A stretch of 64,000 nucleotides of DNA from Collinsella sp. An2. GTDB lineage: Bacteria; Actinomycetota; Coriobacteriia; Coriobacteriales; Coriobacteriaceae. Position 1 is the first letter of the stretch; each line of letters begins with the position of its first letter. Of this stretch, positions 3,698 through 64,000 are shown in pieces. Made by a program: the position numbers and the translations under genes. The notes under the pieces were generated by a model. It was not told where the DNA came from. It saw nothing but the letters and a program-made list of their open reading frames with translations, and did not search any database. The DNA lies in contig NZ_NFJW01000001.1 in the NCBI RefSeq assembly GCF_002160065.1, positions 124,001 through 188,000 of the forward strand. The letters run 5' to 3'.

Positions 3698-3744
3698 ACG
3701 TCCTGCGCGCTGGTCGACAGCTGTAGCTGCGATCGCTTCCCGGC

Positions 3745-3954
3745 AGTTACGTGCGTCGAACGGAAGTTACGTGCGCCAGCTGGCAGTTACGAGCACCGGA
3801 CGGAAGTTGCGTGCGCCGTTTTGAAGTTGATAGAGCTTTGGGGCCATTTTCAGGCCTTCAAAGGGTCAAAAATGGACGAATCCCTCTATCAACTTTCATT
3901 TGCCGTACGCAACTGCGATTCAACGTACGTAACTACAATTCGGCGCACGTAACT
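3745..3954. repeat. Phased inverted motif array, family A copy 1 (20-bp period)
   Basis: AGTTACGTGCG-type motifs begin at 3745, 3765, 3785 and 3805, exactly 20 bp apart, followed at 3825 by AGTTGATAGAG. After a ~60-bp core the complement CTCTATCAACT ends at 3894, and inverse motifs (GTACGCAACT type) end at 3914, 3934 and 3954, again 20 bp apart. This is the only copy whose core is closed by a perfect AAGTTGATAGAG/CTCTATCAACTT pair. The nine bases between motifs are not conserved. It sits directly 3' of the EIIA gene. Function unknown. Confidence 0.9.
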
Positions 3955-4028: not shown

Positions 4029-4123
4029 CCGACCTACGTTTGCTCAGCCGACCGATATCCACCCAGCCGACCCACCTTCGCTCAGCCGACCGATATTCAC
4101 CCAGCCGACCTACGTTCACCCCG
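4029..4123. repeat. 19-bp tandem repeat, five copies
   Basis: Five consecutive 19-bp units begin at 4029, 4048, 4067, 4086 and 4105 with consensus CCGACCNAYNTTCRCYCAG; units 1 and 5, and units 2 and 4, are most alike. They are direct and not inverted, unlike the nearby family A array. They lie about 190 bp upstream of gatC. Function unknown; possibly protein-binding sites or a slippage-prone satellite. Confidence 0.8.
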
Positions 4124-4171
4124 CCGGTTGACGTTCAGAATCCCGCGGGGAACATAACATGCTTGTTGCGA

Positions 4172-7994: not shown

Positions 7995-8144
7995 AGTTGT
8001 GCGCGCACTTTCAAAGTTGATAGAGGATTTCGGCCAGAATCACTCTCAAAAGTGAGGGGTTTTGGACGAATCGCGCACGCAATTCCAGTCGGGCGTACGC
8101 AACTTTCGCCAGGTGCACGTAACCCGAAAACAGGGCACGTGTTC
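7995..8144. repeat. Phased inverted motif array, family A copy 2
   Basis: A single left motif (AGTTGTGCGCG) at 7995 is followed 20 bp later by AGTTGATAGAGG at 8015. After the core, inverse motifs end at 8084, 8104, 8124 and 8144, each 20 bp apart (GCACGCAATT, GTACGCAACT, GCACGTAACC, GCACGTGTTC). The core is identical over about 80 bp to copy 3 on the other side of the fic gene. It lies 3' of gatB. Confidence 0.88.
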
Positions 8145-8227: not shown

Positions 8228-8327
8228 TTGAGGGCCGGCAGCGACCCTCTCTAACGACGACTTCCTGTCGTTAGGGCGATTGAGCGGATTCTAACGACGG
8301 GAAAAACAGTTTTCCCGTCGTTAGAAT
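8228..8327. repeat. Fic-flanking direct repeat, upstream copy, with two hairpins
   Basis: Positions 8228-8254 read as TTG AGG GCC GGC AGC GAC CCT CTC TAA, the same eight C-terminal residues and stop as the downstream fic gene, with only third-base differences. Then come a hairpin (CTAACGAC 8251-8258 with GTCGTTAG 8267-8274) and a perfect 18-bp hairpin (8288-8305 with 8310-8327, loop ACAG). A TATACT -10-like element at 8330-8335 follows, so the hairpin covers the region where the fic promoter -35 should be. It may be an operator for the winged-helix domain of Fic. Confidence 0.85.
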
Positions 8328-9538: not shown

Positions 9539-9610
9539 TAACGACTTCCCGTCGTTAGAGCGATTAAGCGGATTTTAACGACGGAAAAAACAGTTTTTCC
9601 GTCGTTAAAA
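9512..9610. repeat. Fic-flanking direct repeat, downstream copy, with two hairpins
   Basis: Starts inside fic at its last codons and continues past the stop. TAACGAC (9539-9545) pairs with GTCGTTA (9551-9557), and a 17-bp perfect stem spans 9573-9589 and 9594-9610 with the same ACAG loop as the upstream copy. Two stem positions differ from the upstream copy, and both are matched by a compensating change in the opposite arm. The A/T tracts on both sides could also act as a terminator. Confidence 0.85.
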
Positions 9611-9769
9611 GGTAATGGGGTCTTCAATAGGCGCAATATGGGCGTCGTCGGCTGTGTTCCATTGCCCTTCTCTGTGCGCGGTCGAGCGACTCGGCGTGCG
9701 CAAGGTCGTTCACTCGGAAGCTGGTTGCCTTCTCACTTTGTGTGCCGTTACTTCCGATTCCTTCCCTCG

Positions 9770-9974
9770 AATTGCGCGTCCCAAATCCGAATTACGTACC
9801 TCATGTCCGAGTGCGTGCCCTGTTCTCGAGTTACGTGCGCGCTTTCAAAGTTGATAGAGGATTTCGGCCAGAATCACTCTCAAAAGTGAGGGGTTTTGGA
9901 CGAATCGCGCACGCAATTCCCGTCGGGCGTACGCAACTTTCACCAGGCGCACGTAATCCGGGAACGGCGCACGT
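9770..9974. repeat. Phased inverted motif array, family A copy 3
   Basis: Left motifs begin at 9770, 9790, 9810 and 9829, then AGTTGATAGAGG at 9849 (20-bp steps with one 19-bp step). After a core identical to copy 2, inverse motifs end at 9918, 9938, 9958 and about 9978, each 20 bp apart. It lies 3' of fic; the remaining ~290 bp before the next gene show no gene. Confidence 0.88.
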
Positions 9975-15866: not shown

Positions 15867-16134
15867 AGCTACGCGCCCCGCGTCTGAGTTGCGTGCGTCG
15901 TGTCCGAGTTACGTGCCCTATGTACGAGTTGCGTGCGTCGTGTCCGATTTGCGTGCGCGCTTTAAAAGTTGATGGAGGGTTTCGGCCAAAATCCCCCAAA
16001 ACGGACTGGGAATGGCCGAATCGCGCACGCAATTTTCATCGGGCGCACGTAACTTCCGTTGGGCGCACGTAACTTTAAAACGAGGTACGTAACCCGAAAG
16101 CGGGGTGCGCAACCTGCGAACAGCGCACGCAACT
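15867..16134. repeat. Phased inverted motif array, family A copy 4 (largest)
   Basis: Left motifs begin at 15867, 15887, 15907, 15927 and 15947, then AGTTGATGGAGG at 15967. After the core, inverse motifs end at about 16034, 16054, 16074, 16094, 16114 and 16134. All steps are exactly 20 bp, giving a symmetrical 6 + 6 array. It starts about 25 bp after the tmRNA terminator. The ~150 bp between it and the patatin gene show nothing recognisable. Confidence 0.92.
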
Positions 16135-19879: not shown

Positions 19880-20029
19880 AGTTGCGTGCGCGCTTCCAAA
19901 GTTGATAGAGGGTTTCGGCCAGAATTACCTTTAAAACGGGCTGGAGATGGCCGAATTGCGCTCGCGATTTCCATCGGGCGCTCGTAACTTCCATCGGGCG
20001 CACGCAACTCGAGGACGGGGCACGCGACT
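19880..20029. repeat. Phased inverted motif array, family A copy 5
   Basis: A left motif AGTTGCGTGCG at 19880 and AGTTGATAGAGG at 19900 are followed, after the core, by inverse motifs ending near 19969, 19989, 20009 and 20029, at 20-bp steps. It lies about 50 bp after the nagB terminator. Two motifs carry CTCG in place of CACG, showing drift. Confidence 0.85.
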
Positions 20030-33620: not shown

Positions 33621-33739
33621 TGCGGCAATGCACACGCATGCATCCTATATGGTGGCAATCCACACGCTCAGGCCCCCTTTTAAGGCCTTTGAGCGTGTGG
33701 ATTGCCACAATTCTTACGTTGGGCGTGTGAATTGCCACA
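33621..33739. repeat. Phased inverted motif array, family B copy 1 (30-bp period)
   Basis: TGCGGCAATGCACACGC at 33621 and its variant starting 33651 are 30 bp apart. After a 25-bp core, the inverse GCGTGTGGATTGCCACA begins at 33693 and GCGTGTGAATTGCCACA at 33723, again 30 bp apart. A 2 + 2 array, 3' of nrdJ. A homopurine A/G-rich tract follows at about 33846-33890, just before the next gene. Confidence 0.88.
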
Positions 33740-33914
33740 GTTTGCGTGCCTGCGTGAATCGCTTCCACTTGTCTTGCCGCATGTCGAACGGTCCGAAACA
33801 AACGAACGCGTGCAGTCTCCAAAAGACCTGCTCTCACCACCTATTTGACAGAAAAGGAAAAAAAGGAAAAGATAGGAAAAAAAGGAAAAGACTGCCTGGG
33901 CGAAAGGGGACGCT

Positions 33915-42059: not shown

Positions 42060-42368
42060 TGGTCAATTTGGTTGTGGCGTGGGCGCGCCGTTGGTAGGCT
42101 GCGGGCTGCTGTGGTCAATGTACCGGCGCTCTGGGCACGGCTTGCGTGGGAGATGGGTACCCGTGGTCAATTTCATAGAGTGCTGGGTAGGCTTTCGGCT
42201 TCGATATGCCTCTTGCAGGGGATGTTGTGAGGAGATGATGCCCAGTGGAAGCGCATTTTGACCAAAAGGCGCCGAACGGGTCGCGGGGCGTACCCAGACG
42301 GCGCCCATATTGACCAAGGGGTCATGCCGTGCGCATCGGGCGTGCCCAGCGGGCATTCATTTTGACCA
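42060..42368. repeat. Phased inverted motif array, family C (52-bp period)
   Basis: A 23-bp bipartite motif, GGTCAAT-N11-CTGGG (first copy ends GTGGG), begins at 42061, 42113 and 42165. The inverse form, CCCAG-N12-TTGACC (23 bp), ends at 42263, 42315 and 42367. All four steps are exactly 52 bp. The ~75-bp core between the halves and the rest of each unit are not conserved. It lies just 3' of the UPF0210 gene and its terminator. Confidence 0.9.
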
Positions 42369-43811: not shown

Positions 43812-43950
43812 GGCGCTCCTTATGTCGAGGTGGTGCGGCATCTACCTGCCGTCGTGGCACCTATTCTAACGTCCAGGACAGGTGACCGACGCGACAAGGA
43901 GAACGTGTCCGCAGCGTTTACAGGGAGTGAGGCAGCTCGAGGGCAACTTG

Positions 43951-44029
43951 GTCGGTTTAGGTCGTGTCCCAGTGCTCAGTGAGGTGGCTTGACCGGTTTA
44001 GGTCGTGTCACGGTGCTTGGCAAGAGTGC
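43951..44029. repeat. 40-bp direct repeat, two copies
   Basis: GGTTTAGGTCGTGTC occurs at 43954 and 43994 within two ~40-bp units of similar sequence (CTTGGTCGG... and CTTGACCGG...). It precedes the family A copy 6. No inverted partner was found. Confidence 0.6.
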
Positions 44030-44062
44030 CCATGTCGTGTCGCATTGCGAATGCGGTATTCG

Positions 44063-44252
44063 AGTTGCGTGCGCAGTTCCAAAGTTGATAGAGGTTTTCG
44101 GCCATTTTCACCCTCTAAAGTGAGGGTTTTTGGACGAATCGTTCCCGCAACTTTTAGAGAGCGCACGCAACTTGCGTCGAGCGTACGTAACGTGAAAGAG
44201 GGGTACGCAACTCGCATTGAGGGTACGCAACTTGCACCGAGCGTATGCGACT
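44063..44252. repeat. Phased inverted motif array, family A copy 6
   Basis: A left motif AGTTGCGTGCG at 44063 and AGTTGATAGAGG at 44083 are followed, after the core, by six inverse motifs ending at 44152, 44172, 44192, 44212, 44232 and 44252, exactly 20 bp apart. It abuts the metH stop codon (44259-44261, minus strand), so in transcription terms it is 3' of metH. Its core has the same + orientation as all other copies. Confidence 0.9.
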
Positions 44253-51375: not shown

Positions 51376-51505
51376 TGCGGCAAATCACACGCACAGATTC
51401 TGTTCTGCGGCAATTCGCACGCTCGGGGCCCCTATTTGAGGGGTCGAGCGTGTGGATTGCCACAATTCCGGGCCCCGTCGCCGGCCGAGCGTGTGGATCG
51501 CCGCA
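51376..51505. repeat. Phased inverted motif array, family B copy 2
   Basis: TGCGGCAAATCACACGC at 51376 and TGCGGCAATTCGCACGC at 51406 are 30 bp apart; inverse motifs GCGTGTGGATTGCCACA at 51448 and GCGTGTGGATCGCCGCA at 51489 are 41 bp apart. The core GGGGCCCCTATTTGAGGGG is shared with copy 3. The array is part of a ~350-bp block (51315-51666) that is repeated at 57080-57430 and also carries the following terminator and the 3' part of an XRE gene. The ~240 bp between the glnN terminator and the array show no gene. Confidence 0.88.
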
Positions 51506-57140: not shown

Positions 57141-57270
57141 TGCGGCAAATCACACGCACTGGTTCTATCCTGCGGCAATCCGCACGCTCGGGGCCCCTAT
57201 TTGAGGGGTCGAGCGTGTGGATTGCCGCAATTCCGAGCACCGACGCCTGTCGAGCGTGTGGATCGCCGCA
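57141..57270. repeat. Phased inverted motif array, family B copy 3
   Basis: TGCGGCAAATCACACGC at 57141 and TGCGGCAATCCGCACGC at 57171 (30 bp apart), core GGGGCCCCTATTTGAGGGG, then GCGTGTGGATTGCCGCA at 57213 and GCGTGTGGATCGCCGCA at 57254 (41 bp apart). It lies 3' of the M24 gene, inside the ~350-bp block 57080-57430 that duplicates 51315-51666. Confidence 0.88.
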
Positions 57271-63655: not shown

Positions 63656-64000
63656 ATGGCGACGCGAATAAGCCGCGAGACCTATGCCTCGATGTACGGC
63701 CCCACGGTGGGCGACAAGGTGCGGCTTGCCGATACCGACTTGGTGATCGAGGTCGAGCGCGACCTGACGGTCTACGGAGACGAGGCCAAGTTCGGCGGCG
63801 GCAAGACGCTGCGCGACGGCATGGGCCAGTCGGTGAACACCACGTCTGCAGACGGTGACTTGGACCTTGTCATCACCAACGCGCTCATCCTCGACTACAC
63901 CGGCATCTACAAGGCGGACATCGGCGTCAAGGACGGCCGCATCGTCGGCATCGGGCACGCGGGCAACCCCGACGTCATGGACGGGGTCACACCGGGTATG
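63656..64000 (+). CDS. ureC: Urease alpha subunit, 5' part
   Basis: The first 115 codons of UreC, cut by the window end. It reads [25 protein letters not shown], then [14 protein letters not shown], standard for the N-terminal part of the catalytic nickel subunit. The metal ligands and carbamylated lysine lie beyond the window. The start is 2 bp after the ureB stop, with GGGAGG upstream; accessory genes ureEFGD would be expected to follow. Confidence 0.95.

Follow-up and report, generated by a model that had tools for sequence, protein, structure and literature searches.

The array of short motifs at positions 15867-16134 of the window (the whole 64,000-nucleotide stretch that was analysed, corresponding to C1:124001-188000 of the 2.54 Mb genome of Collinsella sp. 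An2, G000) raises the question of whether such a mirrored repeat serves as a site on the DNA or as part of an RNA, and to which kind of element it belongs. A motif with a 20-bp period in six copies within the window had been described in an earlier note, and both the period and the six copies were confirmed by shuffle, distance and reversed-control counts. The unit of these arrays, termed Family A, is the 11-bp motif AGTTRCGTRCG, which is repeated with an exact 20-bp step and mirrored about a conserved core. Allowing up to two mismatches, AGTTACGTGCG gave 42 matches in the window compared to 17.2 ± 4.3 in shuffled sequences, and none of 100 shuffles was as high. In those regions of the genome that were fetched, same-strand neighbours up to 130 bp apart are separated by exactly 20 bp in 100 cases, and the runner-up value is 40 bp (n=4). 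The 20-bp distance did not occur in the sequence compared from two sister species (about 58 kb) or from two other genera (219 kb each). Genome-wide, a two-unit pattern yielded 138 matches vs. 7 for the reversed control. The total for the genome is thus far higher than six: at least 28 copies are present, i.e. 27 arrays in the fetched regions and one at C43:91141-91328.

All 27 locatable copies are intergenic as judged by simple in-house gene calls, 20 in tandem, 5 in convergent and 2 in divergent gaps. They lie between transcription units, and at several sites a terminator-like hairpin precedes and a promoter-like sequence follows the array. A coding function was rejected, since the 20-bp step holds no reading frame and all placed arrays (27/27) lie between predicted genes. 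One array starts 70 bp past the 3′ end of the tmRNA, beyond a terminator-like hairpin. It was rejected as a tmRNA extension because this hairpin intervenes and no other tmRNA is present in the window. Table 1 gives an overview of the arrays within the window.

Table 1 Mirrored motif arrays identified in the window
Feature	Positions	Strand	Description
Family A copy 1	3725-3954	-	Variant with a symmetrical core, AGTTGATAGAG being present on either side; core fits the minus strand best
Family A copy 2	7995-8124	+	91% identity to copy 3 over 179 bp
Family A copy 3	9769-9958	+	1-nt deletion in left arm
Family A copy 4, left arm	15867-15957	+	Five motifs at exact 20-bp steps (15867, 15887, 15907, 15927, 15947)
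Family A copy 4, core	15967-16034	+	AGTTGATGGAGG, inverted pair TTCGGCCA / TGGCCGAA with short hairpin, CGCGCACGCAATT
Family A copy 4, right arm	16024-16134	-	Six motifs at exact 20-bp steps, 16024 to 16124
Family A copy 5	19880-20029	+	348 bp at 86% in common with a copy on contig C14
Family A copy 6	44063-44252	+	Site of 335 bp here vs. 38 bp in sister species G001
Family B array	33622-33738		GYGGCAATCCRCACGC, 30-bp step; segment shorter in sister species G001
Family B array	51377-51504		Left step 30 bp, right step 41 bp
Family B array	57142-57269		Left step 30 bp, right step 41 bp
Family D array	42060-42368		TGGTCAATT-N9-GCTGGGCA, 52-bp step, 3 + 3 units, centre 75 bp

Twenty copies share a common order of core elements, namely motif, AGTTGATAGAGG, TTCGGCCA, a short variable hairpin, TGGCCGAA, CGCGCACGCAATT and motif. 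Measured from the start of AGTTGATAGAG to where the innermost motif of the right arm ends, 18 of these 20 copies have 70 nt and the remaining two 68 and 66 nt. Outside this 70-nt stretch, 0-5 units are found on the left and 2-5 on the right, and the two numbers are uncorrelated (rho 0.19, p 0.42). Given the constant length of the core and the variable, uncorrelated arms, the core is the anchor of each array, and the outer ends are ragged. Duplications within arms are exact and comprise one unit or 40 bp. Copy 4 had been described as a 6 + 6 array keeping 20 bp throughout its 268 bp. Indeed, the step is exact inside each arm. Nevertheless, its core falls 2 nt short of the usual family length (57 instead of 59 between inner starts) and the two arms are consequently not in a single 20-bp register. 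A sixth left unit is obtained only if AGTTGATGGAG at 15967 is counted, and the outer units include several degenerate ones (8-9 of 11). The other copies of the window keep the period in general, with the exception of the left arm of the copy at 9770. A common strand for all six cores was not confirmed because of copy 1 (Table 1); genome-wide, 13 of the 20 copies with a core are on the plus and 7 on the minus strand.

Further repeats were noticed in the vicinity of these copies. A 38-bp/19-bp tandem repeat (CCGACCTACGTTYGCTCAGCCGACCGAYATYCACC) is located at 4029-4126, shortly after copy 1, and perfect hairpins (TAACGACGG...CCGTCGTTA) at 8288-8327 and 9573-9610 lie on either side of a Fic-domain gene, which also sits between copies 2 and 3. 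Repeats of GGTTTAGGTCGTGTC to the left of copy 6 (43930-44040) are part of a segment absent from G001.

In a comparison of 107 units, most of the information was found in the motif columns and the spacers were only weakly similar. Units with the same index in different copies diverged by 0.19 in the motif vs. 0.50 in the spacer, so the motifs are not explained by descent alone. Either a protein on one face of the helix or an RNA with 11-bp helices and symmetrical 9-nt internal loops had been suggested for such an array. As proposed at that time, covariation across the axis was analysed, and for 20 copies the score equalled that of shuffled data (0.126 vs. 0.126), as did the share of standard pairs (68.5% vs. 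68.4% with shuffled partners). Motif positions 5 and 9 showed no clear association across the axis. Mismatches in 37 facing unit pairs comprised 26 G-U and 21 A-C in the motifs and 43 G-U and 46 A-C in the spacers. Folding of copy 4 was predicted to be strong on both strands (z -8.1 on the plus and -6.2 on the minus strand), as is expected of any inverted repeat. The inner 10-bp hairpin, in which some changes occur on both sides, slightly exceeded the shuffles (score 0.304 vs. 0.257, matched by 37 of 500 shuffles). A long hairpin transcript could draw on the predicted folding and on this inner hairpin. With covariation at the level of the shuffles, G-U not exceeding A-C, arms of unmatched length and no Rfam match to the Family A elements, we regard a structured RNA as highly improbable. 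We conclude that the units of Family A are conserved as DNA sites and not as base pairs. The protein reading is favoured instead, since each motif column keeps its letters irrespective of the facing column in the other arm, the spacers drift, and families with unrelated motifs here and in related genomes likewise combine steps near whole helical turns with fixed centre distances.

A scan for palindromes revealed that a fixed step, a fixed centre and mirrored arms also occur outside Family A. In Family B, the step is either 30 or 41 bp and the centre 41 bp; in its arrays within the window, the stem letters GYGG/CCRC co-vary in some units. Family D consists of a bipartite 26-bp motif with an exact 52-bp step (24 of 27 distances; 30 of 33 before removal of one element doubled by overlapping regions) and a centre of 74-75 bp. 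It was found at L058 11495-11803, L060 13490-13849 and 15419-15831, L065 6719-7028, L071 3840-4253 and L179 9158-9465. The same 52-bp step with a 74-bp centre and differing spacers is present in G001, and Family D is absent from all others of the 67 family genomes searched. A further family in G001, AGCGGCCATTYTGCAAYA, has steps of 31/30 bp and a centre of 40 bp. In G067, which belongs to another genus, mirrored arrays are built of GTCGGGCGACATCYGGAC with a step of 30 bp (23 matches vs. 0 in controls). An identical 48-bp piece of a 30-bp-step array, including the spacer, was observed in two species of one genus (G236 C11:36647-36694 and G067 C1:566143-566190). At 10.5 bp per turn, steps of 20, 30, 31, 41 and 52 bp correspond to 1.90, 2.86, 2.95, 3.90 and 4.95 turns and are all within 0.14 turn of a whole number.

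Other repeated sequences were also seen. The core of Family C comprises GAGTAGAC, about 48 nt and GTCTACTC, and is bordered by long arms whose sequence varies among copies and species. Copies were found in this genome (L059 108 and 15727, L061 4435, L067 5182, L071 16410, L073 6552) and in relatives (L104 770, L105 13913, L174 16196, L180 11460, L182 15485), with no Rfam match in the scanned loci. A family of long palindromes (tgtgcaaaa...gttttgtacgact) is present at L058 5069, L070 3454 and L072 8304; in two cases, a Family A copy is no more than 450 bp away. At 33844-33889 of the window, a purine-rich AAAAGGAAA repeat shows 96% identity in G001 amid differing intergenic sequence. An Rfam match to 5_ureB_sRNA on the minus strand (63809-64000) is cut by the window end and possibly reflects mere similarity to the ureB coding sequence.

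Among 299 genomes of the order, none besides the host contained Family A beyond chance. With strict filters, a covariance model detected 15 copies in this genome, and its single match elsewhere was a stray one of 25.6 bits; a scan of GTDB with a three-unit pattern gave three stray places only, in unrelated bacteria. A phage or plasmid origin was rejected, as no match was obtained in phage or plasmid records or in viral contigs. A 20-bp step that is not conserved in other genomes had been named as an outcome that would speak against the earlier interpretation. Family A itself is absent from them, but its geometry recurs there with other motifs. Family A has multiplied in the host lineage and belongs to a group of several lineage-specific families whose mirrored arrays are phased with the helix. 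No paper on such elements in this bacterial group was found in the literature.

The closest pairs of Family A copies are 84-91% alike, with unlike flanks and with similarity that stops near the arrays; one close pair differs by exactly one 20-bp unit. A copy is also present in the his gene cluster, and the aligned flanks are only 65-67 bp apart in both sister species. Copy 6 and the his-cluster copy are hence copies at sites that are empty in relatives, as is typical for MITEs. In the S10-L3 gap, G001 carries a different sequence with other palindromes. Constant outer ends or terminal inverted repeats were not found, and the homology of the closest pairs stops at differing points. No clear target-site duplication was detected; GCCTCG is weakly repeated, at the his site only. 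A search for transposases within the examined Family A arrays and next to them was negative, and none was seen between neighbouring arrays in two intervals. The genes that flank the arrays are mostly housekeeping genes. In two of five young pairs, motifs change at least as often as spacers (pair 310/316: 9/99 vs. 1/54; pair 68/76: 7/77 vs. 2/45), while the opposite trend was seen in three. As a consequence of the two pairs without motif conservation, present-day selection on each copy is not established. The pattern, based on small numbers, could reflect selection on elements that are still multiplying and not on every resident copy.

Y1 transposases were examined as known movers of extragenic palindromes. 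Two such genes are present in this genome. One of them, on contig C3 (L129 1123-1878), is RAYT-like, with 66 bits for NF047646 (below the curated 80) and 8e-14 for PF01797, and is flanked by 27-bp repeats of its own (GCCATTGGGGACGGGTACAAATGGCAG), which have a step of 32 bp and an inverted spacing of 92 bp. Four of five Y1 genes found in G001, G002 and G067 are bordered on each side by clear, individual repeats, and a weaker one accompanies the fifth (L167); the RAYTs of three relatives adjoin other, species-specific palindromic repeats. G154 has no Y1 gene. Family A resembles the REPIN/RAYT system in being dispersed, extragenic, non-coding and inverted with a fixed distance at the centre and in having a species-specific motif. 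REPINs carry one REP per arm and their unit is a hairpin (PMC3116915, PMC2817692), whereas the arms of Family A consist of up to six direct repeats at 20 bp, and unit plus spacer forms no hairpin and has no GTAG/CGTC-type head. Family A also shares with BIMEs, which bind proteins, the clustering of regularly spaced short repeats between genes. BIME repeats, however, alternate in orientation (PMC2817692), while each arm of Family A has one orientation with a single mirroring at the centre. A REPIN-like system of similar geometry is therefore present in this genome, yet Family A cannot be assigned to REPIN/RAYT, because Family A arrays are missing from the 1.5 kb on either side of both Y1 genes and the RAYT has other repeats.

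Imperfect palindromes of 100-300 bp scattered between genes are known as ERIC or MITE-type elements. Family A is likewise palindromic, intergenic and dispersed, but no constant terminal inverted repeat or target duplication was found for it, and it has phased, core-anchored arms of variable length. Repeats near whole helical turns to which one protein binds cooperatively are found in iteron origins, P1 parS and F sopC. This comparison concerns only the way in which Family A might work, as it occurs in at least 28 dispersed places and no replication or partition genes were seen beside it.

The arrays have a fixed step near whole turns and motifs conserved over spacers, as expected of phased arrays. 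From this and from the empty sites in relatives we infer that a protein binds in phase and that the elements are mobile non-coding DNA. A sequence-specific putative protein would sit on the motifs side by side on one helix face, nucleated at the core, and the elements would propagate in the manner of MITEs or REPINs, as non-autonomous mobile DNA. The putative binder may be the mobilising enzyme or a host protein exploited by the elements. We assign a probability of roughly 0.55 to this reading, in which Family A represents at least 28 dispersed, intergenic, non-coding palindromic elements whose arms are bound in phase by a putative protein and which spread in a REPIN- or MITE-like manner. Alternatively, the elements may be REPINs proper, moved by the RAYT of this genome, an IS200-like Y1 transposase, or by one recently lost. 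The RAYT-like gene on C3, the similar geometry of its repeats and the palindromes beside the RAYTs of relatives (clear in 4/5) would agree with this. The distance of all Family A arrays from both Y1 genes, the unit that is neither a hairpin nor equipped with a GTAG-type head, and arms that are runs of direct repeats, neither a doublet nor an alternating BIME, make it quite improbable.

A role for the host, with copying as a secondary event, is unlikely as well. The elements would then be platforms for a putative chromosomal protein (regulator, nucleoid or segregation protein) that spreads from the core. Anchoring at the core with variable outer ends is the opposite of transposon ends and would fit this role, as would the helical phasing of the steps and the location between transcription units, at several sites after a terminator-like hairpin and before promoter-like sequence. 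Nevertheless, closely related species have completely different motifs, several independent families per genome would require several proteins, and two of the youngest pairs lack an excess of motif conservation. The same two pairs, the exact one-unit and 40-bp duplications inside arms and the occurrence of similar copies as neighbouring pairs are also compatible with mere remnants, i.e. tandem or inverted repeats that decay after segmental duplication and unit slippage without any binder. This is very improbable, as motifs are far better kept than spacers in older copies and the geometry is common to several unrelated families.

Binding in phase and mobile spread thus remain the preferred reading of Family A. 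Beyond this family, the arrays tentatively point to a class of elements absent from the papers searched, namely core-anchored mirrored arrays with a helix-set step of 2, 3, 4 or 5 turns, in which the motif is swapped between species while the geometry is kept, possibly driven by a putative family of non-RAYT DNA-binding proteins. If this holds true, several independent families of intergenic elements would follow one geometric rule in these bacteria, and part of the fast-changing intergenic sequence of the group would be explained. A pull-down with a defined bait could then be used to look for the binder, and the arrays would provide a natural system for the co-evolution of motifs and binding proteins at constant spacing.
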